The notes beneath the pieces are model-generated. The model was given only the letters and a program-made list of their open reading frames with translations. It had not been told where the DNA came from and made no database searches. The translations under genes and the position numbers were made by a program. 34,638 nucleotides of DNA. Source: Archaeoglobus sp. JdFR-27. GTDB taxonomy: Archaea; Halobacteriota; Archaeoglobi; Archaeoglobales; Archaeoglobaceae. The DNA lies in contig MTMO01000054.1 in NCBI GenBank assembly GCA_002011235.1, forward strand, positions 1 through 34,638, given 5' to 3'. Positions 8,347-34,638 of this stretch are shown piece by piece. The stretch's first letter is position 1. Every line of letters starts with the position of its first letter.

Positions 8347-9081
8347 ATGGATGAGACCTTAAAGGATCTCGAAGACCCTGTCGAGATGCTCGTTGAAATG
8401 GCAAAAAAGGGAGAGATAGATCCCTGGAACATAGATGTAGTTGATGTTGCCGCAAGATTTCTTGAAAGGCTTGAGAGAGCCCAGAAACTTGATTTAAGGA
8501 TATCAGGCAGAGTCTTACTTTATGCAGCCATTTTAATCAGAATGAAAGCTGAGATTCTAAGTCAGGAGGCTTCAAGAGTTAGGAGGGAGGAGCCTGAGAT
8601 AATTCCCGACGAGATTGACTTTGGAGAGTTCTTTGAGACCGAATTTGAGCTAAGTATAAGAGATTCTGATGGAATCAAGGAAACGGGAGATGAGCTAATA
8701 GACAGCCTGATTTCAGTGCAAAGAAAAACAACAAGGAGGTTTACCACGCTAAAAGATCTTATCAGAGAGCTTCAAATGGCTGAAAATGTGGAAAAAAGAA
8801 GAAGAATTAGGAAAAAAGTTGAAAGGGAGGAAGCAATAAAGCAAACCCTTGAAACTCCCCATGAAGAGGATATCGAGGATATTCTGATAAGGGTTGAGAA
8901 TGAATTATTAAAGCTTTTCAGACGGAAAGAACCGCTTTATTTCTCTGAAGTTGTAAGAGGTAAAGAAAAGGAGAAGCTCACCTACTATCTGTCAATCCTT
9001 CATCTTGCCTTTAGGAAGATCTTAGAGGTTAGACAGGAGAGGCTTTACGACACTGACATAGAATTAAGACTTTACAGGTGA
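8347..9081 (+). CDS. scpA: segregation and condensation protein A (kleisin)
   Basis: Kleisin subunit that bridges the two SMC heads and binds ScpB. The 244-residue protein starts with the typical block DPVEMLVEMAKKGEIDPWNIDVVDVAARFLERL and continues with LDLRISGRVLLYAAILIRMKAEIL, the N-terminal helical domain that contacts the SMC neck. The middle is acidic and variable. The C-terminal part (about 190-244) contains a winged-helix-like segment, LYFSEVVRG through LHLAFRKILEVRQERLYDTDIELRLYR, expected to bind the SMC head. It lies 13 nt after smc and 4 nt before scpB, so the three are certainly one operon. Confidence 0.95.
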   Translation: MDETLKDLEDPVEMLVEMAKKGEIDPWNIDVVDVAARFLERLERAQKLDLRISGRVLLYAAILIRMKAEILSQEASRVRREEPEIIPDEIDFGEFFETEFELSIRDSDGIKETGDELIDSLISVQRKTTRRFTTLKDLIRELQMAENVEKRRRIRKKVEREEAIKQTLETPHEEDIEDILIRVENELLKLFRRKEPLYFSEVVRGKEKEKLTYYLSILHLAFRKILEVRQERLYDTDIELRLYR

Positions 9082-9085
9082 GATA

Positions 9086-9631
9086 ATGGATCCAGAAGGA
9101 ATGGATCCAAAAAAAATTGTTGAGGCCGTTCTCTTTTCATCTCCAGATCCCCTTTCAATCACCAAGATCTCAAAAATTACGAAAATCGACTCAGGAGTCG
9201 TTGAAAGAGCTATTAAAGACCTTATTGAAGAGTACAATACAAGAGATAGCTCAATTGAGATTCTTGAACTGGGAAAGAGGTATCTAATGAGGGTAAAACC
9301 TGACTACTTTTCCTATATTGAAAAATTTGCTGAAAAAGATATGGATAGGGGCACACAAAGAACTCTTGCAGTTATAGCCCTCAAACAACCGATTCTGCTT
9401 TCAAAACTTGCAAAAATCAGAGGAAACAAGTGTTACGGGCATGTAAAGCATCTTGAGGAATTAGGATTGATAAGAAGTGAAAAAAAGGGTAGAAGTAGGC
9501 TACTAACAACAACGAGACACTTTGCCAAATACTTTGGATTGAAATCGAGTGACCCAGAAGAGATCAGAGAAATACTCGGCAAGAGGGTAAAATCCAGGGA
9601 CCCAAGTTTGAAAAGCTTCCTTGATGTTTGA
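9086..9631 (+). CDS. scpB: segregation and condensation protein B
   Basis: Dimeric winged-helix partner of ScpA in the SMC complex. The 181 residues contain two winged-helix units: KKIVEAVLFSSPDPLSITKISKITKID near the start, and TQRTLAVIALKQPILLSKLAKIRG, then KHLEELGLIRSEKKGRSRLLTTTRHFAKYFGL near the end, the classical ScpB pattern. ATG 9086 is preferred because GGTGA of the scpA end serves as its SD. An in-frame ATG at 9101 is possible, since ATGGATCCA occurs at both sites, but the AGAAGGA before it leaves no spacer. It is the third gene of the smc operon. Confidence 0.93.
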   Translation: MDPEGMDPKKIVEAVLFSSPDPLSITKISKITKIDSGVVERAIKDLIEEYNTRDSSIEILELGKRYLMRVKPDYFSYIEKFAEKDMDRGTQRTLAVIALKQPILLSKLAKIRGNKCYGHVKHLEELGLIRSEKKGRSRLLTTTRHFAKYFGLKSSDPEEIREILGKRVKSRDPSLKSFLDV

Positions 9632-9675
9632 TAAGAGTGAATCCGTTAGTTTAATTGAATAGAAAACCTAAAAAG

Positions 9676-9684
9676 ATTTTTAAC
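9676..9684 (+). promoter_or_regulatory. TATA-like box for the gene at 9707
   Basis: ATTTTTAAC is centred 27 nt before ATG 9707 and no SD intervenes, so this gene probably has its own leaderless transcript although it follows scpB closely. Confidence 0.45.
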
Positions 9685-9706
9685 ATCCTCATGAAAGTTG
9701 AATTCC

Positions 9707-10477
9707 ATGGGGAAAGATGATCCAAAAGATATTTCCTCAATCCTTTCACAACTGCCAAAGCTCATAGACAATGAGGTAGTGTCAGAGAAGGAGATAGAAG
9801 CAAAGCTTTTAAGAGCCGTTCTGAGAAATTTGGAGGTCAAGTCAGAGGTCAATATCTCAAATCTTCCTGAGTTTTCAACCCTGTTAGAAGAGGTGAAAGA
9901 GAGCCTTTTTGAGATTCCCCTTTCAATCACTTCTCCCCACTTTTCAGAGAAACTCGAATTGGGTGGTGTGGTCTTCTGCCATCTTCACACGTGTAAACCA
10001 GATGTAGAAAAGATGAATAGAGCTTATAGCAATTATCTAAAGGCAAAGGAGTTTCTGGATGTCTTACCAAAACTAAAAGAGATTACAGATAGATTTTTCT
10101 CAAATTATTCTGTCAAAGATGGTGTTATAAGGGAATATGGAGGAAAACAAAAAGCATGGGTCTTTTTCACGACTATGGATGACCTTTTTGAGGATTTGGA
10201 TTTCCATCTCAACCTCGCAAGCACGCTGAATGGAAGATATTGTGTAGTTGTCCCTACTGAAAAAAGCCTAAAAAACTTCATAAAATTTTTCAGAGAACAT
10301 TCAGAAAAAGCAAAGAGAGCGGGCCTTCGCATATGGGTCGCCGACCCCAAAAAAGGTACAATCGATCCTTTCATAGGTTATCCCAAGGATCTCAGCCTGA
10401 TAAAAAACTTCAATAATCCTAAGATTGCTTCTATAATATCCTCCTATTGGAGAATTGAGGTAAAAGAACTTGATTGA
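9707..10477 (+). CDS. unrecognised cytoplasmic protein downstream of scpB
   Basis: A 256-residue protein that I cannot assign to a family. There is no signal peptide or membrane segment. The N-terminal third (to about 75) is helical and acidic. Then a FCHLHTCKPDVEK motif appears near residue 95, and the second half has an alternating strand/helix pattern (KAWVFFTTMDDLFEDL, RYCVVVPTEKSLKNFIKFF, RAGLRIWVADPKKGTIDPFIGYPKDL) suggestive of an alpha/beta domain. ATG 9707 is chosen over TTG 9698 because the TATA-like box is 27 nt upstream of it. It follows the smc operon on the same strand by 75 nt, a weak hint of a link. The stop is followed after 1 nt by a tandem TTTATTATAA repeat. Confidence 0.75.
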   Translation: MGKDDPKDISSILSQLPKLIDNEVVSEKEIEAKLLRAVLRNLEVKSEVNISNLPEFSTLLEEVKESLFEIPLSITSPHFSEKLELGGVVFCHLHTCKPDVEKMNRAYSNYLKAKEFLDVLPKLKEITDRFFSNYSVKDGVIREYGGKQKAWVFFTTMDDLFEDLDFHLNLASTLNGRYCVVVPTEKSLKNFIKFFREHSEKAKRAGLRIWVADPKKGTIDPFIGYPKDLSLIKNFNNPKIASIISSYWRIEVKELD

Positions 10478-10478
10478 G

Positions 10479-10514
10479 TTTATTATAATTTATTATAAAC
10501 TTGTAAATTTACAA
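10479..10514. repeat. tandem TTTATTATAA x2 plus a 14-bp palindrome in a convergent gap
   Basis: Two perfect copies of TTTATTATAA occupy 10479-10488 and 10489-10498, directly after the stop of the plus-strand gene. TTGTAAATTTACAA, a perfect 14-bp palindrome, follows at 10501-10514. The two flanking genes converge here, so a termination or insulating role is plausible. Confidence 0.65.
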
Positions 10515-10551
10515 AATCCTTAGAACCATCTAATCAATTTAACTACCAGAA

Positions 10552-11181
10552 CTATCTGATCCTCCTACCCCTTACAAAATCGTAGATCCTTCTTGCCTGT
10601 TTTTCCCCGATTCCATCAACTTTCATGAGCTCTGAAATCGGAGCATTGATGACTCTTTGAATGTTTCCAAGCTTTTCCAGTAGCCTCCTCGCTTTTTCTT
10701 CTCCAATCCCAGGGATGGCTGTCAGCATCGCAATGCTATCATCAACCTTAGCTTTCCTTAACCTCGGAGCAGTCCTAAGCCTTCCTTCTTCAAGCTGACG
10801 ATTCAAAGATTTGAGGACCAAACAGAAGTCTTCATCGCTTTCTACCTGAACGGGTATAACCCTTTGGCCGGTTTTGAGGGATATACTTAGAATGCTTCCG
10901 ATAAATGCATCCTTTTTTATCCTCGAAAAATCTGGCCTGCCGATTATGCAAAGAAACGAGAGCTGGTAAGACTTGGAAAGGTTGTGAATCTGATTAAAAA
11001 ATCTTCCATCAGCGATCGAGGAAACATAATCGCTTGCACTTTTTCTTTCTACAGCCACAACATAGCCCTGGTGATGGATCAAGTAGTCTGCTAACTCGAG
11101 TCGCTTCCTCACCACTTTCAAGCCTAGAGAGGTAAGCATTTCAATTATCCTTTGTGGTTCTCTATCATCAGCAAAGATCAT
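10552..11181 (-). CDS. short XPF/Mus81-type ERCC4 endonuclease with tandem HhH
   Basis: Structure-specific endonuclease for branched DNA (flaps, forks). The 209-residue protein has the nuclease core with ADDRE (D5 D6 R7 E8), D32 in LADYLI, and the signature VERKSASDYVSSI with E45 R46 K47 and D51. After a linker, a tandem helix-hairpin-helix domain fills about 140-205 (MLTAIPGIGEEKARRLLEKLG and LMKVDGIGEKQARRIYDFV). There is no N-terminal SF2 helicase, so it is the short form rather than the fused Hef of many euryarchaea. No PCNA-binding motif is evident at the C-terminus (RGRRIR). It follows rlmE by 9 nt on the minus strand and is the last gene of that operon. Confidence 0.93.
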   Translation of the reverse strand: MIFADDREPQRIIEMLTSLGLKVVRKRLELADYLIHHQGYVVAVERKSASDYVSSIADGRFFNQIHNLSKSYQLSFLCIIGRPDFSRIKKDAFIGSILSISLKTGQRVIPVQVESDEDFCLVLKSLNRQLEEGRLRTAPRLRKAKVDDSIAMLTAIPGIGEEKARRLLEKLGNIQRVINAPISELMKVDGIGEKQARRIYDFVRGRRIR

Positions 11182-11190
11182 AAAATTAAC

Positions 11191-11793
11191 CTACCTCTGA
11201 TCATCCTTTCTAAATCCTTTTCCAATAAAATAAACTTCCGAACTCCTTTTTCTAGAAGCTTGTGGGGAATGGAATTTTTTAAACCTGAATTTGGGTGCAA
11301 CTTCTCGGTAAAATGATTCGATTTCTTCCCCTTGAAAAACCTTAACGAGAAAATTCCCTCCTCTCCTCAGAAATAACTTTGCAAATTCGAAAGAGGCTTT
11401 TGCCAGATCTATAGACAACAAATGATCTATCGTCCACTTTCCTGTTAGTTTAGGCGAGGCATCGCTTATAACAGCATCAAATTCGATTTTGAGATCCCTT
11501 ACCGCTTTAATGGTTTCTTCTTTGGTAATATCTCCCCTGATGATCGTAACGCCATCCATTGGAGGCATTGGATTTATGTCAATTGCAACAACCTCTGCTC
11601 CGAGTTCAGTTGCAACCTGGCTCCATCCACCAGGAGAAGCTCCTAAATCGAGAACTTTGTAACCGCTTTTGATGAGGTTGAACTTCTTGTTGATTTGGAT
11701 GAGCTTAAAAGCTGCCCTGCTTCGATAACCTTTTTCCTTAGCTTTCCAATAGTAGTAATCCTGTCTATCCCGTGTCCGTCTGGGTTTCGCCAT
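11191..11793 (-). CDS. rlmE: 23S rRNA (uridine-2'-O-)methyltransferase, FtsJ/RrmJ family
   Basis: SAM-dependent 2'-O-methyltransferase acting on large-subunit rRNA. Of 200 residues, the N-terminus DRQDYYYWKAKEKGYRSRAAFKL is the family hallmark, and the SAM loop VLDLGASPGGWSQV spans about 47-60. The K-D-K-E catalytic tetrad is complete: K30, D111 (VISDASPKLTG), K151 (FLVKVFQG) and E186 (SSEVYFIG). There is no C-terminal TRAM domain, which some archaeal homologues carry. It starts 2 nt after the YjbQ-family stop and ends 9 nt before the XPF-type gene, so it belongs to the same minus-strand operon. Confidence 0.95.
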   Translation of the reverse strand: MAKPRRTRDRQDYYYWKAKEKGYRSRAAFKLIQINKKFNLIKSGYKVLDLGASPGGWSQVATELGAEVVAIDINPMPPMDGVTIIRGDITKEETIKAVRDLKIEFDAVISDASPKLTGKWTIDHLLSIDLAKASFEFAKLFLRRGGNFLVKVFQGEEIESFYREVAPKFRFKKFHSPQASRKRSSEVYFIGKGFRKDDQR

Positions 11794-11795
11794 GA

Positions 11796-12191
11796 CTATG
11801 TTGCTATAACTTTTACAACTATTCTTCGATTGCTTCTTGGCCCATCAAGCTCGATAAAAAGTACCCTCTGCCATGTACCCAGATCTAATCTTCCATTGGA
11901 TACCGGCACTACAACGCTGTTCCCTAATAAAATCGCCCTAATGTGGGAGTCTGCGTTATCATCCATTATATCATGCTTGTAACCCGCCCCTCTCGGCACC
12001 AATCTGCACATCACATCTTCAATATCTTCCATCAGCCCCCGTTCTCCTTCGTTTATCGTTATAGCAGTTGTTGTATGGCGGGTATAGATAATCGCCAGAC
12101 CATCTCTAACCCCAGTTTTCCTCACTTCTTCCTGGACCTTATCCGTTATGTCGATTATTTCCGTTCTTTTTGAAGTTCTCAATTCAAGCAT
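11796..12191 (-). CDS. YjbQ / UPF0047 family protein
   Basis: A 131-residue single-domain protein of the YjbQ (UPF0047) family, for which a side thiamine-phosphate synthase activity has been reported. The physiological role in archaea is not settled. The signature YTRHTTTAITINEGERGLMEDI (about residues 36-57) and the second metal-site block YKHDIMDDNADSHIRAILLG are both present, as is the closing strand QRVLFIELDGPRSNRRIVV. The histidines in the HTT, KHD and SHI contexts are the expected metal ligands. ATG 12191 is preferred over an upstream in-frame TTG at 12197, since TTTTTTTAA sits about 26 nt upstream. An 11-bp repeat array lies just beyond that promoter. Confidence 0.9.
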   Translation of the reverse strand: MLELRTSKRTEIIDITDKVQEEVRKTGVRDGLAIIYTRHTTTAITINEGERGLMEDIEDVMCRLVPRGAGYKHDIMDDNADSHIRAILLGNSVVVPVSNGRLDLGTWQRVLFIELDGPRSNRRIVVKVIAT

Positions 12192-12224
12192 AATCAAAAT
12201 TCGGATTCAAATTAAAAAAACTTT

Positions 12225-12268
12225 ACATAAATCAGACATAACATAAACCCTACATAAACTTTACATAA
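12225..12268. repeat. five ACATAA copies, mostly 11 bp apart, across the Clp1/YjbQ junction
   Basis: ACATAA begins at 12225, 12236, 12241, 12252 and 12263, giving spacings of 11, 5, 11 and 11 bp. The last copies overlap the final codons of the kinase gene, whose stop is at 12250-12252. On the minus strand the unit reads TTATGT and sits just upstream of the TTTTTTTAA promoter of the YjbQ gene, where an activator or repressor would bind. Confidence 0.65.
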
Positions 12269-13464
12269 CACTCCCTAAAATCATCGTCTAGTCTGAAATC
12301 CCCAAACTCAATTCGTAAGACTTTTTCTTTTACAGAGGTAAGGACTTTTATCATACCATTGTAATTAACCTCCTTGATTGTCCCAAAACCGAGATATCTG
12401 TCTGAATACAAGCCCACTAAAAGACCGATTAATTCCTCTTCTGGAATGATAAATAAATCTTCAACACCGTAAATTTCCTTTAACGTCTTGAGAACCCCCC
12501 TACTTATCTCCGGATGGTTTTTAACGAAAATGTTTAAAAAATCATCCCCTTTTTCAGCATATATCACCTCACCAAAAATGTCGTTGAGAACCGCAAGATC
12601 TTCTTTGCCAAGGGTTTTTCCCTTAAAAATCTTCCAACTCTTCGATCTCAGCTTTTTAGTATCCAGTTCAATTTCTCTTGCATCAGAAAGGAGTTCAGCA
12701 TACCTCCTACTTCTGAAATTCATCCTTACGTTTCTGCTCCTTTTAGCCGCAGCAAAAGGCTCAACTTTCAAAACCTCTATATCAATAAAATCAAGGAAAG
12801 ATGGGTTCTCAAACGCAAGTACGGCATCGGGTTCGAGGATGTTCAGCTTAGCGAGCTTGTATTCCTGGGCTTTTCTACCCCTAACCCACCCCGTTGAATC
12901 TATGATTATCGTTTCAGCATTTTCCTTGATCCTTTGCAACTTCTTTCTGAGGTCGAAGACCGCATTCAGGCAGCGAGCTTCCCTCCCACCTGGAGAAATC
13001 GTTCCAACGAATTCTCCGTCAGCCATCCTTATCTCTGAAATCGACACAACTTTATCATCTGAGATGCCAATACCCATTGCTCCGGGGTGAGCTATGCTCG
13101 ACTGCCCGATATCAAGATCTATCAAAATTTTTTTGCCTTCGATTAGGTTGTTCAGATAGGTGGCAAGGCTGCTTTTCCCCGAATCGGAAGACCCATAGAT
13201 GAAAAAACTTTTGAATTCATGGGCCCTATCAAGAACTTTTTTCCAAGAATCAGGAATCGTGCTCCCTTTAACAGGAATATAGAACGTTTCATCACTAAGA
13301 AAAAGAGTTGAATCTTCCTCGAAATAAACTGGGAAAGCCTTATCTTCAGGAATCTGAATTTCTTTGATTTCACAACCAAAGACGCTTGCTTTTCCCTCAA
13401 CTTTAATAACAGAGGGACCTTTGACGATAACGGTTGTGTCCTTTTTATCGCTGAAGGAGATCAT
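12250..13464 (-). CDS. polynucleotide 5'-hydroxyl kinase, Clp1/Grc3 type
   Basis: ATP-dependent kinase phosphorylating 5'-OH ends of RNA or DNA, with a probable role in RNA processing or repair. Walker A is GSSDSGKSSL near residues 91-100, followed by KILIDLDIGQSSIAHPGAMGIG, the Clp1/Grc3 block that holds the nucleic-acid end. The lid-type segment IIIDSTGWVRGRKAQEYKLAKL is near 185-205. A beta-rich N-terminal domain (1-85) and a C-terminal domain with a YLGFGTIKEVNYNGMIKVLT strand complete the 404 residues. ATG 13464 lies about 27 nt after a TTTTTATTC promoter. GTG 13467 would add one residue. It is the first gene of the minus-strand unit with YjbQ, rlmE and the XPF-type nuclease. Confidence 0.88.
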   Translation of the reverse strand: MISFSDKKDTTVIVKGPSVIKVEGKASVFGCEIKEIQIPEDKAFPVYFEEDSTLFLSDETFYIPVKGSTIPDSWKKVLDRAHEFKSFFIYGSSDSGKSSLATYLNNLIEGKKILIDLDIGQSSIAHPGAMGIGISDDKVVSISEIRMADGEFVGTISPGGREARCLNAVFDLRKKLQRIKENAETIIIDSTGWVRGRKAQEYKLAKLNILEPDAVLAFENPSFLDFIDIEVLKVEPFAAAKRSRNVRMNFRSRRYAELLSDAREIELDTKKLRSKSWKIFKGKTLGKEDLAVLNDIFGEVIYAEKGDDFLNIFVKNHPEISRGVLKTLKEIYGVEDLFIIPEEELIGLLVGLYSDRYLGFGTIKEVNYNGMIKVLTSVKEKVLRIEFGDFRLDDDFRECYVKFM

Positions 13465-13540
13465 CACAAAAATTAAAAAGACTCAGAATAAAAACATATT
13501 TGAATAATTCGATGCTATTAATGCTCTTGTTACCCCAACT

Positions 13541-14476
13541 TCATCCTTTGGTATTCGTACCATTCGCGGTATTGTTTGTGGTGTTTTCCACAGGTTTTAT
13601 CTCGATCATCCTCATTTCCGGTTCAAGCTGCATCAGCTTTGTAAGATTCGTATCTCCCATCACAGCCATACTAAGCCCATCTTTGAAGTTTTTGAATCTG
13701 TAGTAAGCTGTTTCGTTTGACTTTATAAAAAAGCCATTTTTCGTGAAGTTCATTAGGACGACTTTCTCATAGTAAGTTCCGTTTGATGTGTTATTTATTC
13801 TGTAGGCTGCAAGATAGAAGTCAAAGAAACCTGATGCATTACCTTGTACAAGCTGTTTTACCGCATTACCTTTGAACATTATTATTAAGTTGTAATCTCC
13901 CTTAGGCATTCTTCCAGTAAAATTCTCAACTTCCGATGCGAGGCTTTTTCCCTTTCCTGAAATCGTATCCAAAGTTCTAACAACAATACCGGTTGTTCCG
14001 AAAAGGAAGGGACTTGTTTGATCCACCAAAGAAATCCCCTTATTCGATTTTATTTTGTAGCCATTGTAAACATCCTCTGACTCATGAGTGAAAAAGACCT
14101 TCGTTTTGTTAACGTCAATTAGATAAAGAAGCTCAGGAAATACTCCTGAGTAACTGGAGACCATGAATCTGCTGATTCCCTGGCTAAAACGGAGGTTGGA
14201 GAAGAACTCTGAATCCATATTATTCGTGACTATCCTTTTTAAAATATCAGAGAGTTCTGGGTTTGAGTTCGCAAAATTCACATACACTACCTGATCTGCT
14301 CCTGAAGGTATCTTTGATATCAGCCCCTGAAAGCCTTCTGGGAAGTTAAACTCAACCTCCCTTTGATGGGTAGTTTGGGTCCGTTTTGCGGCATAAGTTA
14401 GAACTGAACCGATCATTATGAGCGCAAGAAGGATAGCAAGCAATCTTGCTCCTTTAGACTCCATTTTACGGGCCAT
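13541..14476 (-). CDS. membrane-anchored, sequon-rich surface protein of unknown function
   Basis: 311 residues that I do not recognise. A single hydrophobic segment at about 11-30 (ARLLAILLALIMIGSVLTYAA), preceded by basic residues, is an uncleaved anchor or signal peptide, so the rest should face outside the membrane. The outside part contains about ten N-X-S/T sequons (NKT, NFT, NAS, NTS, NGT, NET, NLT, NTT among them), and the last 20 residues are Asn/Thr-rich, as in archaeal S-layer-associated glycoproteins. There are no Cys residues and no metal motif. It lies 73 nt upstream of the Clp1-like gene on the same strand. ATG 14476 has no clear SD. Confidence 0.7.
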   Translation of the reverse strand: MARKMESKGARLLAILLALIMIGSVLTYAAKRTQTTHQREVEFNFPEGFQGLISKIPSGADQVVYVNFANSNPELSDILKRIVTNNMDSEFFSNLRFSQGISRFMVSSYSGVFPELLYLIDVNKTKVFFTHESEDVYNGYKIKSNKGISLVDQTSPFLFGTTGIVVRTLDTISGKGKSLASEVENFTGRMPKGDYNLIIMFKGNAVKQLVQGNASGFFDFYLAAYRINNTSNGTYYEKVVLMNFTKNGFFIKSNETAYYRFKNFKDGLSMAVMGDTNLTKLMQLEPEMRMIEIKPVENTTNNTANGTNTKG

Positions 14477-27824: not shown

Positions 27825-29027
27825 TTGAAGAAAATAGAGCTTGCCTCAAGTGTGATATTGATCTTAATAATATTGATAGGTGCTTTAGGAATCTACCAAA
27901 TGCACGCAAAACCAATTACACCTATCGAACCTTTCGAGTCTTCTATTAGTATTCCCTGGAGGTTGCTCGTAGCAGTATACGTGTTCTTCGTTGTCTCAAC
28001 CACTGGCCTATGCATTGTAGCCTCTTTGGGTGAGGTCTTTGGCTTCTCAAAACTTGAACCGATTGTTAAAGAGGGCTTGTTGATGGCTCTAGTTACAATA
28101 CTCGTCGGCCTACTAACAATCGGCTTAGAAATAGAACAGGTAACCCGAGGCTACTACGCAATGATTGGGCATGTCAATCCTAAAAGTGTTATGTTTTGGA
28201 TGATTATGTTCTATGTTCTATACGTTGTTTTCCTAGTCATTGAGATGTGGTTCTATTTCTATGACGACTTTCTCAGGCAAAAGGAAAGCAAAGGGTTAAA
28301 GGGTTGGATCGCAAGAATTCTTACGATCCCGAAAGCAACTGAAACGAAGGATTTCGCCAGAGTAATAGGCTTCGTAACTGTATTCACAGCTATAGTTGCA
28401 CATAGCAATCTTGGCGCCCTTTTCGCGGTGAACTACCTTCCCTTCTGGCATGGTCCCCTTTTGCCGATATATTTCATTCTCTCAGCAATTGTTTCCGGAG
28501 CGGCACTAACCGTTATCGGTGCATACCTTACAGATCGCATTAGAGGTATGAGGATTGAAGAAAAGAGATACGAGGCAATTCAAATGCTAAGAGTGATTCT
28601 GGGATTTTCTATCGTTGTAACAATATTTTTCACCGTATGGAAATTTATTATAAAAGCATATCCAAATTCCACATTTCTCTCTAGGGAAGCAGTAGAAGTA
28701 TACCTTACGGGTGATTTTGCGTTTAATTTTTGGGTAATGGAGGTTTTCATCGGACTTCTGATTCCCCTGGCTCTTCTAGCGATCCCACGAACCGGAAGAA
28801 AGGTCGAAGGTGTTTTTTTAGCTTCCCTACTAACGATAATCGGAATATTTTTCCTCAGAATAGATCTCGTCATGGGTGGGCTTGCGATTAAGCTTATCTC
28901 CGGGATTACTTTTCCATCCCTCGTTTTCCATCCCTTTGAGGTTATGGCTACAGCCGGTTTCATCGCTTTGTCGATTCTCCTTTATTACATCGGCTACAAG
29001 CTTCTCCCAATGGAGGTGGAAGAATGA
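27825..29027 (+). CDS. NrfD/PsrC-family menaquinol-interacting membrane subunit (DsrP/HmcC-like)
   Basis: About 400 residues and eight to ten transmembrane helices, starting with ELASSVILILIILIGALGIYQ. This is the polytopic quinone-site subunit that pairs with a four-cluster ferredoxin in Psr, Nrf, Hmc, Hme and Dsr complexes. Segments such as RLLVAVYVFFVVSTTGLCIVASLGEV and SVMFWMIMFYVLYVVFLVIEMWFYFYDDF are NrfD-like. It should oxidise or reduce menaquinone near the outer face. TTG 27825 is chosen because GGGTGAT lies 3 nt upstream. TTG 27795 is in frame, gives ten more residues, and fits the TATA box. The stop overlaps the ferredoxin gene as ATGA, so the two are coupled. Confidence 0.88.
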   Translation: MKKIELASSVILILIILIGALGIYQMHAKPITPIEPFESSISIPWRLLVAVYVFFVVSTTGLCIVASLGEVFGFSKLEPIVKEGLLMALVTILVGLLTIGLEIEQVTRGYYAMIGHVNPKSVMFWMIMFYVLYVVFLVIEMWFYFYDDFLRQKESKGLKGWIARILTIPKATETKDFARVIGFVTVFTAIVAHSNLGALFAVNYLPFWHGPLLPIYFILSAIVSGAALTVIGAYLTDRIRGMRIEEKRYEAIQMLRVILGFSIVVTIFFTVWKFIIKAYPNSTFLSREAVEVYLTGDFAFNFWVMEVFIGLLIPLALLAIPRTGRKVEGVFLASLLTIIGIFFLRIDLVMGGLAIKLISGITFPSLVFHPFEVMATAGFIALSILLYYIGYKLLPMEVEE

Positions 29028-29761
29028 AAAGAAGAAACTTTCTCAAGCTAATCGCGGGATTGTTACCCTTTGCAGCACTTACAAAGGCTCTAGAAAACTC
29101 TGAAGATACTGAAAAAAGCTATGTTATGGTTGTTGATGTTAACAAATGTATCGGATGTGGTAAATGTGTTACAGCATGCAAGATTGAAAACGACATTCCA
29201 ATGGATCTCCCAATTTCCAGAACATGGATAGAAGGGTATTCAGTTAGTGAAAAGATACCCGTTTCAGAGTCCGAGATTAGAAAGCTTGTAATGAATACTT
29301 CTAAGAATCCATTCCTAGATAATTTGATCAAAACTTCTAAAAGATATAAAACCTTTTACGTGCCAAAACTATGCAATCATTGCGCGAATGCACCATGTGT
29401 TACTGTATGTCCCGTCTTCGCAAGGTTCTACACGAAGGATGGTGTTGTACTTGTTGACAAAGAGACTTGCATCGGATGTAAATACTGCATAGTCGCATGT
29501 CCATACGGGGCTACTTTCCTTCATCCTGAAGAGAAGGTCACGGACAAGTGCACCTTCTGCTATCACAGAATAAAGAGGGGTTTGCAGCCCGCATGTGTCC
29601 TTGCTTGTCCAACTGCTGCGAGAGTATTTGGAGACATAAATGATGAGAACGGCGAGGTAAGCAGGCTTGTAAGGGAGAACAGAGTAAGTGTGCTCAAGCC
29701 AGAGGAAGGGACGTTTCCAAGGGTGCTCTATATAGGTCTTGACTCATACGTGGTGGAGTGA
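29024..29761 (+). CDS. Tat-exported four-[4Fe-4S] ferredoxin subunit (DsrO/HmeA/HmcB-like)
   Basis: 245 residues with a Tat leader (MKRRNFLKLIAGLLPFAAL, RRNFLK motif), so folded with its clusters and placed outside the membrane. Cluster ligands come in four sets: C42-C45-C48-C52, C117-C120-C125-C129, C149-C152-C155-C159 and C176-C179-C191-C195 (CTFCYHRIKRGLQPACVLACP). This is the NrfC/PsrB/DsrO arrangement. It passes electrons between the NrfD quinone site and an external haem partner. It starts inside the NrfD stop (ATGA) and ends 4 nt before the tetrahaem cytochrome gene. Residues 62-115 are an insertion between clusters 1 and 2. Confidence 0.92.
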   Translation: MKRRNFLKLIAGLLPFAALTKALENSEDTEKSYVMVVDVNKCIGCGKCVTACKIENDIPMDLPISRTWIEGYSVSEKIPVSESEIRKLVMNTSKNPFLDNLIKTSKRYKTFYVPKLCNHCANAPCVTVCPVFARFYTKDGVVLVDKETCIGCKYCIVACPYGATFLHPEEKVTDKCTFCYHRIKRGLQPACVLACPTAARVFGDINDENGEVSRLVRENRVSVLKPEEGTFPRVLYIGLDSYVVE

Positions 29762-29765
29762 TTAG

Positions 29766-30179
29766 ATGAGGGGGAAGGTTATAGTGTTCGGGCTGATATT
29801 CGCAGCAGCGATTTACCTATTGCTTTTCGCATACGTCTTCGGGTTTTCACCCATCGTTACAAAAGAGAGTCAATCCAAGTGGGTTGATATCGAGCTTTCA
29901 AAGGAGCCGAAGTTTTCCGATACAGGAATTTGCAAAGAATGTCATTACAAACTCTACATTGGCATGAAAAATCACTCCACAGTCAACTGCGAAGCGTGTC
30001 ATGGGCCAGGCATTGAGCACACGATAAAGAGATCCAAAGACACGATTGAGATAAACAGAAGCAGGGATGCTTGCCTTAGATGTCACTTAGATATCGAAGG
30101 AAGGAATGTCATAGAAGTTGTAAACGAAACACACCACTCTGGCATCCTGTGTGTTGTCTGCCACAACCCACACGAGTAG
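29766..30179 (+). CDS. membrane-anchored tetrahaem cytochrome c
   Basis: 137 residues. An N-terminal transmembrane anchor (VIVFGLIFAAAIYLLLFAYVFG, about 5-26) is followed by a domain outside the membrane with four CXXCH sites: CKECH 56-60, CEACH 75-79, CLRCH 103-107 and CVVCH 129-133. The extra histidines in KNHSTVNCEACH, IEHTIK and ETHHSGILC are candidate distal ligands, giving bis-His haems. In gene order it takes the place of DsrJ (HmeE), which has three haems. The extra haem and the context of NrfD and ferredoxin point to a Hmc/Nrf-like electron relay. A strong SD (GGTGGAGTGAT) precedes ATG 29766. Confidence 0.93.
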   Translation: MRGKVIVFGLIFAAAIYLLLFAYVFGFSPIVTKESQSKWVDIELSKEPKFSDTGICKECHYKLYIGMKNHSTVNCEACHGPGIEHTIKRSKDTIEINRSRDACLRCHLDIEGRNVIEVVNETHHSGILCVVCHNPHE

Positions 30180-30328
30180 GACTAGAATTCTGAATATCCA
30201 TAAATATTCGCAAAATCGAAAATATCCCCTAAAAATTCCAATAAACGGGGTGAAATAACTTTGAAAATGGAGAAAATCCGAAATGTTAATATAAGGAGGG
30301 CATGTTTGACTGAATGGAGGGTCATCCT

Positions 30329-30736
30329 ATGGATAACCGAATAATCATCCTTCTGACTTTGTTTATAACCTTGAGCATTATAGGGTGTGTTCAAGAGAAA
30401 GGTGAAGTTAATGAAGTTAAAGTGGTTAAAGAGGTTAAAGAAGGTTTAATTGAATTTGAAGAGATAAAAGATTGCCAGTGTCACACTCAGGCTTACAAGT
30501 ACAAATCCCACGTTAACGGGTTAAAGTACTGCCTGACCTGCCACAAGATAGAAAAGCATCCCAGAGGAAACTGGAGTGAGGGCTATTCCTATAAAGACTT
30601 TATAAAATGCTCCAAATGCCATGAAACCAGCCTCCTGAGGGTCCACATGCCAGAGCACACATGCGTTGAATGCCATGGCGATGCCAAAACCATTCACCAG
30701 AAATTCGAAAGCAAGTTTCTGGAGGGAGAGAAATGA
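30329..30736 (+). CDS. multihaem cytochrome c lipoprotein with one contracted CXCH site
   Basis: 135 residues. ATG 30329 is chosen over 30314 because GGAGGG is the SD. The signal is DNRIIILLTLFITLSIIGC, with a lipobox LSIIGC and lipidation at C20, so the protein is tethered to the outer face. A Val/Lys/Glu spacer (about 22-45) follows. Haem sites are CLTCH 68-72, CSKCH 94-98 and CVECH 112-116, all regular. The first site reads DCQCHTQAYKYKSH: CQCH at 49-52, one residue short of CXXCH. The neighbouring pentahaem protein has CEECHTNAYKYPKH at the same place. Three or four haems are therefore expected. It lies 149 nt after the tetrahaem gene, with a possible internal promoter (TTAATATAA, 30286-30294). 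Confidence 0.88.
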   Translation: MDNRIIILLTLFITLSIIGCVQEKGEVNEVKVVKEVKEGLIEFEEIKDCQCHTQAYKYKSHVNGLKYCLTCHKIEKHPRGNWSEGYSYKDFIKCSKCHETSLLRVHMPEHTCVECHGDAKTIHQKFESKFLEGEK

Positions 30737-31152
30737 GGAAGATAATTCCGATGATCATTTTTATTCTGTTGATTTTCGTGATCTCAAGCACAATAAATGC
30801 TGAAAACGAAGTTAGCACCCTTGATTTCAATCTTTCCTGTGAGGAATGTCATACTAATGCCTATAAGTATCCGAAACACCTCGAGGGTTACAGTTACTGC
30901 AAGAAATGTCATGGAAACGATGTCCATCCGATTCATTCCATAGATTGCAAAACATGTCATCAAAACGAGCCTCTAACTCCCTTCTGCCATGGAGCCGATC
31001 CAGATGTTGTCGTCCCAACGTCAAACGGTTTGATTTGCAAGACGTGTCATCAAAGTAATCTCGTTGAGGTTCATGAATCCAACTGTCAGCTATGCCATCA
31101 GAACGTTAATGAGATTCATAAGGAAGCGGATGTCGTCGGAGGTGTTGAGTGA
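30733..31152 (+). CDS. secreted pentahaem cytochrome c
   Basis: 139 residues. The ATG 30733 start overlaps the lipoprotein stop as ATGA, with GGAGGGAG before it. The N-terminal signal peptide is RKIIPMIIFILLIFVISSTINA, probably cleaved after NA. There are five regular haem sites: CEECH 36-40, CKKCH 56-60, CKTCH 72-76, CKTCH 102-106 and CQLCH 118-122. A further TPFCHG near 83 has only one Cys and would be a single-Cys site if used. Extra His in DVHPIHSID and VEVHESN may act as distal ligands. The C.CHT.AYKYxxH block and following YCxxCH match the lipoprotein gene upstream, so the two are tandem paralogues. It precedes the b-HdrD fusion. Confidence 0.92.
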   Translation: MRKIIPMIIFILLIFVISSTINAENEVSTLDFNLSCEECHTNAYKYPKHLEGYSYCKKCHGNDVHPIHSIDCKTCHQNEPLTPFCHGADPDVVVPTSNGLICKTCHQSNLVEVHESNCQLCHQNVNEIHKEADVVGGVE

Positions 31153-33110
31153 TGTTTGAGATCATATACTTCATCATGCTTTTGATTTCCTTAGGAGTTT
31201 TTTCATACGGCATCTGGCAGAAATGGAAGTTCATCAACATAGGAATACATGGTGAGCCGAGAACCAAAGATCCTTGGAGAAGATTCTGGTTTGTGGTGAG
31301 AGATGGTCTGATTCTGGTAAGGTTGTATTTAAGGGAATCAAAGATGGGAGTTTCCCATTTCCTGTTCCTTTGGGGTGTAATTGTTATCCTCCTCAACATC
31401 CTGATTTTCACCATCTCGTTCGCTTTCCCGGATCTTTTTAGGATAGCTTACCCGTTCTTAAAGTCATCGATGACTGTCGCTGGAGTGATGATAATAGTCG
31501 GACTTGGTATTGCAGCGATTAACAGATATCTGATCAAACCGAGTAGATTTACCAGAAAGTACGAATTCGCATGGGATGATGATCCGGTTCTCATCATCTT
31601 CATTCTTGCAGCGATCTTTGGAATAATACTAAAAGAGTTCGTGAGGTTCAGCGATTTTAATACAACTTCTCTCCCCTACATTCTCTGGTTTCTCCATACA
31701 ATCTTCATCCTCGTTTTTATAGCCCTGATCCCATACACAAAGCTTCTGCACATTTTCATAGCACCAATAAACATATTCACAAAAAGCGAGAGGTTGCCAG
31801 GAATCATGAGGGAGCCACCAAGCGAAGGCTACATGGGTGCAATAACCCCGGCCGATCTCACGAGAAGAGATTTGCTTGCAAGCCTGGCATGCATGCGATG
31901 CGGGAGATGTCAAGATCTCTGCCCGGCAACGAATTCAGGTGCAACGCTCAATCCGATGTTCCTAATGCAGAACATAAGAAGGCTTGAAAAAGTCTTAAAA
32001 GGAGAAAATGAGAGGCCTGAAGGAGTTGAAAACCAAGAAACTCAAGGAAGTCAAGAAGGTCAAGAGGATCAAGAAGGCCAAACCAAAAATCCAGAGGATA
32101 TACTCCTTCTCGACACGGTTATGGACATGGAAGGTGTGTGGGCATGCACTACATGCAGAGCGTGCATGGAGATGTGTCCAGTCTACATAGAACAAATGGA
32201 AATCCTTGGAGAGATGAGAAGGGGAATAATAGAGAGTGCAGAAGCTCCACCTGACATAAGAGACTTCCTGACGAACATACAAAAGCAGAAGAACCCATGG
32301 GGTGAGGCTAAGTTCAAGAGAGATCAGTGGAAGAAGGGGATTGAGTTTGAGATCCCAGTAGCGAAGGAAGCGGAATTTGAATGGCTCTGGTATGTTGGCT
32401 GTGCCCACAGCTTTGATAACAGAAACAAACCTATTACCCAAAAAATAGCTAAGATCTTCGCAGATATCGGAGTTAACTATGCTATTCTTGGTAGAGAGGA
32501 AGGCTGCTGTGGAAACGATGTCAGGAGGGTTGGAGAGGAAGGACTATTCCAGATTCTTAGAGATGAGACCATCCAGACCTTTGAGAAATACGGCGTGGAA
32601 AAAATTATCGCAACATCTCCACACTGCTTCAACACGTTCAAAAACGAATACGAGGGCTTTGATGTGAAATTCATCCTGGAGGTTATCTTGGATGCAATTA
32701 AATCTGGAAAACTCGAACTTAAAAATCCGATTAATAAGAGAGTCACATTCCATGATCCGTGCTATCTCGGGAGGTACAACGAGATGTACGATTTGCCAAG
32801 AGAGATCCTTAAATCGATCCCGGGAATTGAGCTCGTTGAGATGCCAAGGAACAGGGAAAGGAGTTTTTGCTGTGGAGCCGGAGGGGGAAACCTCGTTAGA
32901 GAGTATCCAGGCGAAGATAGACCGAACAATATCAGAGCGAGGGAGGCTGCATCGACGAACGCTGAAATTCTGGCTGTTGCATGCCCATTCTGTATGATAA
33001 TGCTGGAAGACGGTGTAAAAACCGAGAAGTTAGATGAGAAGATTCAAGTTCTGGATGTAATAGAATTAGTCTGGGAATCTGCTTATGGTGAAAGTGAGAA
33101 ACCTTTATAA
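31152..33110 (+). CDS. cytochrome b / HdrD-type fusion: membrane haem-b domain joined to a two-CCG iron-sulfur reductase
   Basis: 652 residues fusing DsrM- and DsrK-like functions. The N-terminal NarI-type part (1-210) has five transmembrane segments with haem ligands H69, H182 and H200. The cytoplasmic part has two ferredoxin clusters: C247-C250-C253-C257, and C332-C335-C338-C342. Two CCG domains follow: C417, C452-C453, C492, where the last pair is SPHC rather than CXXC; and C537, C573-C574, C611-C614, complete. The full second CCG domain is the likely disulfide-active 4Fe-4S site, as in heterodisulfide reductase HdrD and DsrK. A Gln/Glu-rich insert (about 284-313) separates the two ferredoxin motifs. 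GGAGGTG precedes ATG 31152, which overlaps the pentahaem stop by one base. Confidence 0.93.
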   Translation: MFEIIYFIMLLISLGVFSYGIWQKWKFINIGIHGEPRTKDPWRRFWFVVRDGLILVRLYLRESKMGVSHFLFLWGVIVILLNILIFTISFAFPDLFRIAYPFLKSSMTVAGVMIIVGLGIAAINRYLIKPSRFTRKYEFAWDDDPVLIIFILAAIFGIILKEFVRFSDFNTTSLPYILWFLHTIFILVFIALIPYTKLLHIFIAPINIFTKSERLPGIMREPPSEGYMGAITPADLTRRDLLASLACMRCGRCQDLCPATNSGATLNPMFLMQNIRRLEKVLKGENERPEGVENQETQGSQEGQEDQEGQTKNPEDILLLDTVMDMEGVWACTTCRACMEMCPVYIEQMEILGEMRRGIIESAEAPPDIRDFLTNIQKQKNPWGEAKFKRDQWKKGIEFEIPVAKEAEFEWLWYVGCAHSFDNRNKPITQKIAKIFADIGVNYAILGREEGCCGNDVRRVGEEGLFQILRDETIQTFEKYGVEKIIATSPHCFNTFKNEYEGFDVKFILEVILDAIKSGKLELKNPINKRVTFHDPCYLGRYNEMYDLPREILKSIPGIELVEMPRNRERSFCCGAGGGNLVREYPGEDRPNNIRAREAASTNAEILAVACPFCMIMLEDGVKTEKLDEKIQVLDVIELVWESAYGESEKPL

Positions 33111-33477: not shown

Positions 33478-34392
33478 ATGTTGTGGTTGCAAATATTGGT
33501 TTATATTTCGGTCGGAATTTTTGTTATCTTGATTTTAGCAAAAATCATCAAGTATTCAACTATGCCCCTGCACCTGAGATGGGAACTTTATCCAGTTCCA
33601 CATGAAAAGTTCAAAGCCGAACACGGAGGTAGCTATTACGAGGAGTCTGAATGGTGGAAAAAGCCAAGGGAGACGAGTCTTGTTGGAGAGCTGAAGGAGA
33701 TGCTGCTAGAAATGCTCTTCCTCAAGAAGGTCTTCGAATACAAAAGGCGGCTATGGTACCTGACATTCCCATTCCACATGGGCATCTACTTAATACTTTT
33801 GTGGTTTGCACTGCTTTTTATAGCCTCGATATCTGTGAGCTTGGACAGATTGATATCCATAATTGGAGGTCTGGGAATAGTTCTCCTAGCTTTTGGCAGT
33901 ATCAGCCTGCTATTCAAAAGGCTATTTGACAAAAGCTTGAGAACGTACAGCACTCTGGCAGACTACTTCAACCTGATATTCATTCTCGCAGTGACAGTCA
34001 GTGGTATTCTTTCATGGAGAGTTGATGCAAATTTCACAACCGCGAAAATGTTTATGGCCTCGCTGATAACTTTTTCAGCCCCCCCAATTCTTTCACCAAT
34101 TGCAGTAATTCACACAACGCTACTCTCACTCCTCGTCGCCTACATTCCAACTTCAAGAATGACACACTTTATTGCAAAGTACTTCACGTATCACAAGATA
34201 CTTTGGGAAGATATCCCCAATATCGCTGGTTCACCGATTAGAGAGAAAATCAAGGAGGTGTTGGCCTACAGGGTTACCTGGTCTGCACCACATATAAGGC
34301 AAGGATTGACCTGGGCTGAAGAGGCCATGGAGATAGAACCGGTCATAGAGGTCAGAGCAAAACTTACAGATGAGAGAAAGAAGGGTAGATAG
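33478..34392 (+). CDS. dsrM: DsrM/HmeC-type membrane cytochrome b subunit
   Basis: 304 residues. The opening MPLHLRWELYPVPHEKFKAEHGGSYYEESEWWKKPRETSLVGELKEM and RRLWYLTFPFHMGIYLILLW are the DsrM/HmeC signature. Further transmembrane helices follow (ISIIGGLGIVLLAFGSISLLF, YFNLIFILAVTVSGILSW, ILSPIAVIHTTLLSLLVAYIP), with H in PFHMGIY, VIHTTLL and TSRMTHFIAKYFTYHKILW as haem-b ligands. It takes electrons from menaquinol and hands them to the cytoplasmic DsrK subunit. The C-terminal tail from about residue 245 is soluble and cytoplasmic. It is the first gene of a second unit, with its own promoter, and the next gene fits DsrK. Confidence 0.93.
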   Translation: MLWLQILVYISVGIFVILILAKIIKYSTMPLHLRWELYPVPHEKFKAEHGGSYYEESEWWKKPRETSLVGELKEMLLEMLFLKKVFEYKRRLWYLTFPFHMGIYLILLWFALLFIASISVSLDRLISIIGGLGIVLLAFGSISLLFKRLFDKSLRTYSTLADYFNLIFILAVTVSGILSWRVDANFTTAKMFMASLITFSAPPILSPIAVIHTTLLSLLVAYIPTSRMTHFIAKYFTYHKILWEDIPNIAGSPIREKIKEVLAYRVTWSAPHIRQGLTWAEEAMEIEPVIEVRAKLTDERKKGR

Positions 34393-34405
34393 GGGTGCCA
34401 AATCG

Positions 34406-34638
34406 ATGGATTACTACAAGTTTAATTTTATTTCTCCAGAGGATTTTTCGATTATAGATAAGCAGATTGTAAAAGTTAAGTCAAAAGATCTTATTCCGTT
34501 GCAATACTGTGATGAACCTGAATTCACAAACTCCTACCCAGAATGGATTGAGAAGTACGCTACAGAATTGGATGGATTCATAGCGATAGATGAACCTTGG
34601 AAACCAAAAAACAAGGAAGAAGAGGAGGCTTTGGTGAG
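34406..34638 (+). CDS. N-terminal part of a probable DsrK/HmeD (HdrD-like) subunit, cut by the window edge
   Basis: The open frame from ATG 34406, with GGGGTG 8 nt upstream, runs off the right edge after 77 complete codons. It begins MDYYKFNFISPEDFSIIDKQ and includes YPEWIEKYATELDGFIAIDEPWKPKNKEEEEAL. There is no signal or membrane segment, so it is cytoplasmic. The Fe-S and CCG motifs that would identify DsrK lie beyond the edge. The call rests on position directly after DsrM and on the general DsrK layout of a charged N-terminus leading to a Trp-Lys-Pro-rich linker. Confidence 0.55.
   Translation, partial: MDYYKFNFISPEDFSIIDKQIVKVKSKDLIPLQYCDEPEFTNSYPEWIEKYATELDGFIAIDEPWKPKNKEEEEALV

Follow-up and report, generated by a model that had tools for sequence, protein, structure and literature searches.

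The 34,638-nucleotide stretch of DNA considered here (the window) is the whole of one contig (C34, MTMO01000054.1) of the 2.36-Mb genome, in 67 contigs, of Archaeoglobus sp. JdFR-27, a member of the order of A. fulgidus, Geoglobus and Ferroglobus. Its forward strand carries, between positions 27825 and 33110, six genes, all overlapping or closely spaced, for an NrfD-type membrane subunit, an exported ferredoxin, three cytochromes c and a fusion of cytochrome b with an iron–sulfur part (Table 1). An earlier interpretation made from the letters alone (the sequence-only reading) had described them as a composite menaquinol redox module, and the six genes, the fusion of the b and CCG parts and the two further cytochromes c are all borne out. 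The TTG start of the NrfD gene, preceded by a GGTGA-like ribosome site, is the likelier one, as that reading had it; the cLip open reading frame as listed begins at 30314, its likelier start being the ATG downstream of GGAGGGTCAT, and the start tabulated for c5 is the likeliest. The cluster consists of two separable blocks, A (NrfD–ferredoxin–c4) and B (cLip–c5–fusion), and the junction between them coincides with the widest gap, which between c4 and cLip amounts to 134 bp here compared to 16–82 bp in relatives with the complete cluster.

Table 1. The six genes of the redox module and the features that identify them
Gene product	Block	Position	Strand	Identifying features
NrfD/PsrC-type integral membrane subunit, 400 aa	A	27825..29027	+	PF03916, 147.7 bits
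Tat-exported ferredoxin, four [4Fe-4S] clusters	A	29024..29761	+	Fer4_11 and others; 16 Cys; Tat motif KRRNFLK
Membrane-anchored tetrahaem cytochrome c (c4)	A	29766..30179	+	4 CXXCH; N-terminal transmembrane helix
Lipoprotein tetrahaem cytochrome (cLip)	B	30329..30736	+	CQCH + 3 CXXCH; lipobox SIIGC
Pentahaem cytochrome with signal peptide (c5)	B	30733..31152	+	5 CXXCH
Cytochrome b–2[4Fe-4S]–2xCCG fusion, EtfD-like, SPHC type	B	31149..33110	+	5 transmembrane helices; EtfD (9ojn), E 1.7e-77; tree

By Pfam and NCBIfam, the NrfD protein, the ferredoxin and the fusion can be assigned to broad families only, none of the three reaching an equivalog cut-off for Nrf, Ttr, Hmc, Qrc, DsrMKJOP, Hdr or Tmc. 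The best NCBIfam match of the membrane subunit is NrfD itself (62 bits, cut-off 347.6), with nothing specific to DsrP, and its match among solved structures is 6f0k_C (‘Polysulphide reductase NrfD’, E 1.5e-6). The ferredoxin stays below the cut-offs for TtrB (205.6 bits), DsrO (181.7 against 200) and NrfC (163.2 against 377.6), as do the scores for HmcB (104 against 420), HmcC (44 against 550) and HmcF (46 against 750).

The ordinary Hme/Dsr operon was rejected as the identity of the module. In the same genome DsrA lies on contig C25 and adjoins a complete canonical ferredoxin–NrfD–DsrM–DsrK–trihaem operon (L115), and the six-gene module of the window is therefore not the genome’s own Hme/DsrMKJOP system; the composite menaquinone-type module of the sequence-only reading is to that extent supported. 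Nor is their order, as that reading had allowed for, the usual operon of all relatives, most of which lack the module. Downstream in the window (33478-34636) there follow a DsrM-like cytochrome b of the NarI/DsrM family and, cut off where the contig stops, the first part of a DsrK-like gene. This pair was excluded from the module: it comes after a gap of 367 bp, it is absent beside all other modules read, and the DsrM-like gene has no match in the five other genomes of the genus.

The arrangement is real and conserved, and we found no published description of it. The order NrfD–ferredoxin–c4–cLip–c5–fusion is kept in five other genomes (one of these contigs, that of G011, begins within c4), which argues that it did not arise by chance. 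Across 57 genomes of the order, with relatives of c5 counted at E below 1e-42 and those of NrfD at 40% identity or more, close c5 relatives occur in 17, in the loci read always directly 5' of the fusion gene and 3' of cLip, and close NrfD relatives in 18, namely these 17 and G055, a member of the sister family; in each locus read the NrfD gene is followed by the ferredoxin and then c4. Block A is thus present in 17/17 genomes with block B as compared to 1/40 without it, a 2x2 table giving p = 1.3e-13, a value which overstates the evidence since the counts are phylogenetically non-independent, ten of the 17 genomes belonging to one genus and six being explained by linkage. What is solid is that the joining of the blocks is kept in three genera and that both blocks are retained in all ten genomes of the genus in which they are unlinked. 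A sample of 246 genomes drawn from across the phylum, outside the Archaeoglobaceae, yielded no cLip.

The blocks are contiguous in six Archaeoglobaceae genomes of these three genera (G000, G003, G006, G011, G012, G021) and lie apart in 11 (G032, G045-G054); in two of the latter a single contig holds both blocks, at a distance of about 64 kb (G051) and 16 kb (G052), so the separation is not an effect of assembly. Such independent occurrence, along with the block A of G055 that lacks block B and adjoins deca- and dodecahaem genes and with a second, unlinked block A in G011, would suit two independent operons that simply came to lie side by side and share only the quinone pool, the one an NrfBCD-like quinol:cytochrome c arm and the other a flavoprotein–menaquinone oxidoreductase with cytochromes of its own. 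We consider this explanation improbable, given that block B is always accompanied by block A and that the joined order has been kept in three genera. Elsewhere in the order, cousins of block A lie next to cytochromes with 8, 10 and 12 haems, which would be expected if the block is a quinol:cytochrome c arm. The locus of G055 (L137, G055:C1:161000-180900, 8521-13146, minus strand) additionally has a second, diverged c4–ferredoxin–NrfD set nearby. An operon at L114 (G000:C41:9000-24537, 9871-13778, minus strand) combines an octahaem protein (510 aa, PF13447) with a tetrahaem cytochrome, a ferredoxin and NrfD; it has close equivalents in Geoglobus (L147) and Ferroglobus (L150) and looks like a quinol-fed octahaem reductase. 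At L035 (3649-5639) one genome carries, directly 5' of the six-gene module, an extra HdrD-like protein and a second cLip-like/c5-like pair.

The hosts of the module comprise sulfate reducers, methanogens (McrA in five genomes) and G048, in which neither DsrA nor McrA was found; the module is hence tied neither to sulfate reduction nor to methanogenesis. G048 is an Archaeoglobaceae genome of 1.2 Mb, 99% complete, that has both blocks as well as ETF. As to the Fe(III) that the sequence-only reading had suggested as a possible external partner, the five genomes with McrA belong to a methanogenic group in which a published genome analysis found no genes for reducing Fe(III), nitrate or thiosulfate (PMC7380581).

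The three cytochromes c share a pattern in which the number of invariant histidines outside the haem motifs equals the number of motifs. It is four and four in c4 (17 sequences) and five and five in c5 (16 homologues), and in cLip the two numbers agree, again at four, only if the CQCH motif is counted. In cLip (16 homologues; numbering from 30314) C54, Q55, C56 and H57, the three CXXCH motifs and H66, H82, H111 and H128 are invariant and the lipobox Cys25 nearly so. cLip and c5 are paralogues, and c5 has CXXCH at the position of the CQCH. Among 77 distinct reading frames with three or more CXXCH in the loci read, 17 contain CXCH, and all 17 are cLip. Together this is good sequence evidence that the CQCH of cLip is a genuine haem site in which a single residue separates the cysteines, a putative CX1CH site. 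The open-access literature (subscription papers not covered) held nothing relevant on CXCH haem sites, and we claim no priority for CX1CH. The ‘up to 13 haems c’ of the sequence-only reading stands accordingly with the CQCH included (12 CXXCH and one CXCH) and falls short by one on CXXCH alone. A lone C85-H86 in c5 (LCH or FCH), invariant in the 16 homologues, may serve either as a ligand or as a haem site with a single cysteine. In the Protein Data Bank cLip matched ACE2 and c5 matched zinc fingers; both results were discarded as composition artefacts, and the AlphaFold models, of low confidence (pLDDT 56 for cLip, 53 for c5), were not used.

The fusion is decisive for the interpretation, and its family placement departs from the ‘HdrD-type’ label it had been given. 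Its only significant solved relative over the full length is EtfD of M. smegmatis (9ojn), an ETF:menaquinone oxidoreductase, and for the CCG part alone EtfD (E 6e-67) likewise stands far ahead of methanogen HdrB (about 1e-4). The architecture is that of EtfD, a cytochrome b of five transmembrane helices with a haem-b histidine pair being fused to 2[4Fe-4S] and two CCG domains. The haem-b ligands His78 and His241 of EtfD and its D2 ligands, namely DPC, CC, CPxC and the His from PHC, have been described (PMC13083937); the former correspond to His70 and His201 in the window, conserved in all groups examined, and all of the latter are found in the window fusion. According to the authors of that study, D2 of EtfD is non-catalytic owing to the extra histidine (PMC13083937). 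The position at which the fusion has SPHC is occupied by CAGC in HdrDs located beside an upstream gene of HdrE size (242-264 aa; 5/5, methanogen genomes; of the two such genes scanned, one showed a Nitrate_red_gam domain) and in TfrB, a subunit of CoM/CoB thiol:fumarate reductase (20/20 best matches to NF004898), so that the CxGC of the first of an HdrD’s two catalytic CCG sites is missing. In a tree of 46 CCG proteins built by a quick method, the SPHC proteins all group in a single clade (SH-aLRT 99), separate from HmeD and from the CPGC and CAGC types, and the module fusions form a subclade (84) inside it. The thiol or disulfide chemistry proposed in the sequence-only reading is disfavoured by the nearness to EtfD, the SPHC with the D2-capping histidine and the absent CAGC, even if transcript data discussed below still favour it. 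The ‘heterodisulfide reductase’ part of the fusion, judged on these residues, looks like an electron wire for flavoprotein electrons rather than a disulfide-splitting enzyme.

Comparison with the solo fusions typified by A. fulgidus AF0755 adds to this picture. Module fusions are 56-59% identical to them overall, the cytoplasmic part 76-78% and the membrane part only 39-40%, compared to 62-76% for the membrane part within either group. We read this as suggesting that the two groups share their partner in the cytoplasm and differ in the one in the membrane or outside it, which would fit the added cytochromes.

Neighbourhoods of related proteins point to flavoproteins as possible donors. Soluble relatives of the SPHC or SPHA type lie directly beside EtfAB in three genomes (G015, L157; G076, L216; G062, L214) and beside a FAD_binding_4 oxidase at L215 and L222. 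In G055 a canonical EtfD with CPHC lies next to EtfA, and an SPHC fusion is encoded at a separate site; the two types thus coexist and may have different donors. The presence of EtfA was dropped as evidence for an ETF partner, being unlinked to the module and unspecific (47/57 genomes), and so was a β-oxidation neighbourhood: an acyl-CoA synthetase (AMP-binding) adjoins five module loci, the other neighbours (ABC transporter, helicase, HisG) being unrelated. At L152, L153, L154 and L155, in genomes of the A. profundus/A. veneficus type, EtfAB is joined to an HdrD-like protein without the D1 CXXC and the D2 CPxC.

Several observations weigh against a flavoprotein role. D1 is not EtfD-like: every Archaeoglobi fusion has C, CC and SPHC where EtfD has C, C[T/N/S] and CPHC, meaning that CC is kept, the first cysteine of CXXC is lost and the ligand set of EtfD’s linear cluster D1 is not complete, a loss of D1 ligands that is also seen, and tolerated, in the ETF-linked homologues FadF and DgcB (PMC13083937). 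The module loci read contain no etfAB, a search for ETF-alpha gave nothing in G052 and G047, both of them module genomes, and CAGC-type HdrDs have FAD_binding_4 neighbours too, so such a neighbour is not exclusive to the SPHC type. AF0755 has been called a fused HdrDE and is co-induced with the Vht hydrogenase (PMC3949148); the membrane-bound HdrDE in Methanomixophus and the fused HdrDE in Methanoglobus were credited with reducing CoM-S-S-CoB (PMC7380581, PMC10945360); and in methylotrophic Ca. Methanoglobus the fused hdrDE is highly expressed (PMC10945360). The expression in Methanoglobus is real evidence for the published view, and the transcript data fit a reductive role of the fusion.

On this view, to which the Hdr-like CC in D1 can be added, the fusion would be a true HdrDE-type enzyme that oxidises menaquinol and reduces a cytoplasmic disulfide (CoM-S-S-CoB in the methanogenic Archaeoglobi; in sulfate reducers that of DsrC or of a different thiol carrier), while electrons would be supplied or drawn off through block A and the cytochromes, as in DsrMKJOP. 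We regard it as rather unlikely. The CAGC common to all HdrD and TfrB proteins examined is SPHC here and EtfD’s non-catalytic D2 histidine is present; the same protein, with a cytoplasmic part 75-79% identical, occurs in sulfate and iron reducers without McrA; and the methanogenic genomes G051-G053 possess other HdrDs with intact CAGC. The genome LMO2 named in PMC7380581 is that of locus L046 and, judging from the identical locus layout, is taken to be the same as G053; with one fusion per genome, it carries one fusion, the SPHC protein of block B, and four other HdrDs, and G053 has two soluble HdrDs with intact C[AP]GC (L219, L220). The related M. hypatiae was reported to contain one fused hdrDE, four hdrD and a fused hdrD/mvhD (PMC10945360). 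Soluble CAGC-type HdrDs beside FAD_binding_4 are present in methanogenic Archaeoglobi at L219 (2781-3947, minus strand), L223 (2639-3805, plus strand) and L228 (1727-2971, plus strand), and by their motifs they are candidates for the true heterodisulfide reductase.

Based on the collective evidence, we propose, at about even chances, that the products of the six genes form a transmembrane redox complex linked to menaquinone, or else two complexes in tight coupling, in which a cytoplasmic EtfD-type flavoprotein:menaquinone wire is combined with an outer NrfBCD-like arm and a 13-haem chain. On the cytoplasmic side the cytochrome b–iron–sulfur subunit would serve as a wire that connects menaquinone with a soluble flavoprotein, in all likelihood EtfAB or an FAD protein resembling it; by homology to EtfD, the menaquinone site would lie beside the single haem b, itself close to the cytoplasmic clusters. 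On the outer side the NrfBCD-like arm would pass electrons between menaquinol and the three cytochromes c, all of the bis-His kind, whose 13 haems apparently include one bound through CX1CH. The simplest circuit may run flavoprotein–FeS–haem b–menaquinone–NrfD–ferredoxin–c4–cLip/c5, drawn here without assigned direction, as the flow would depend on the external end partner. The part list also resembles those of Hmc and Tmc, and an inward route of that type would have external donors (H2, formate or partner cells) reduce c5/cLip and send electrons through haem b to the cytoplasm. This appears very improbable: the sequence shows a single pair of haem-b ligands, which in EtfD sits close to the cytoplasmic clusters, and this makes a direct path from external haems to haem b without quinone unlikely and menaquinone the natural link to NrfD.

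Taken one step further, the proposed EtfD-type flavoprotein:menaquinone wire would, in permanent partnership with the NrfBCD-like arm and an external chain of 13 haems that has a conserved CX1CH site, make up an undescribed respiratory complex, and at the same time the ‘fused HdrDE’ of methanogenic Archaeoglobi would be a non-disulfide wire, the real CoM-S-S-CoB reductase being a soluble CAGC-type HdrD. This joint conclusion is tentative and, as a whole, somewhat improbable. If true, it would change the route of electrons to the last step of methane formation in Archaeoglobi, make the CAGC-type HdrDs the better heterodisulfide reductase candidates, and provide in CxGC compared to [CS]PHC a simple residue test for sorting many ‘HdrD’ annotations. 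A further result of the study is a conserved candidate for a haem site whose cysteines are separated by one residue only. The study is most useful in that it challenges, in a form open to testing, the disulfide role credited to the fused ‘HdrDE’ of Archaeoglobi, which calls into question the published assignment in the methanogenic relatives.

Among known systems, DsrMKJOP/Hme and Hmc have the same part list of NrfD, exported ferredoxin, cytochrome c, cytochrome b and CCG protein, whereas in the module the b and CCG parts are fused and of another subfamily and there are three cytochromes c; in place of separate DsrM and DsrK-family proteins there is the fusion, which gives 63.8 bits for DsrK against a cut-off of 400 and lies far from HmeD in the tree. 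NrfBCD of cytochrome c nitrite reductase and related arms share the three parts of block A (NrfD, ferredoxin, cytochrome), but no nitrite reductase stands beside it. HdrDE differs in the CAGC and DPCH motifs carried by the HdrD that adjoins a gene of HdrE size. Of the ‘fused HdrDE’ proteins of A. fulgidus (AF0755) and Ca. Methanoglobus, the AF0755 type is the direct homologue of the fusion, about 78% identical in the cytoplasmic part, and lacks the cytochromes c. EtfD/EMO of M. smegmatis (9ojn) has the same fused architecture, haem-b histidines and D2 ligands with the extra histidine, and contrasts with the module in D1 (C, CT/N/S and CxHC as compared to C, CC and SxHC); ETF is here a candidate partner, and the module operon extends the EtfD plan with two cytochromes c and the NrfD arm.

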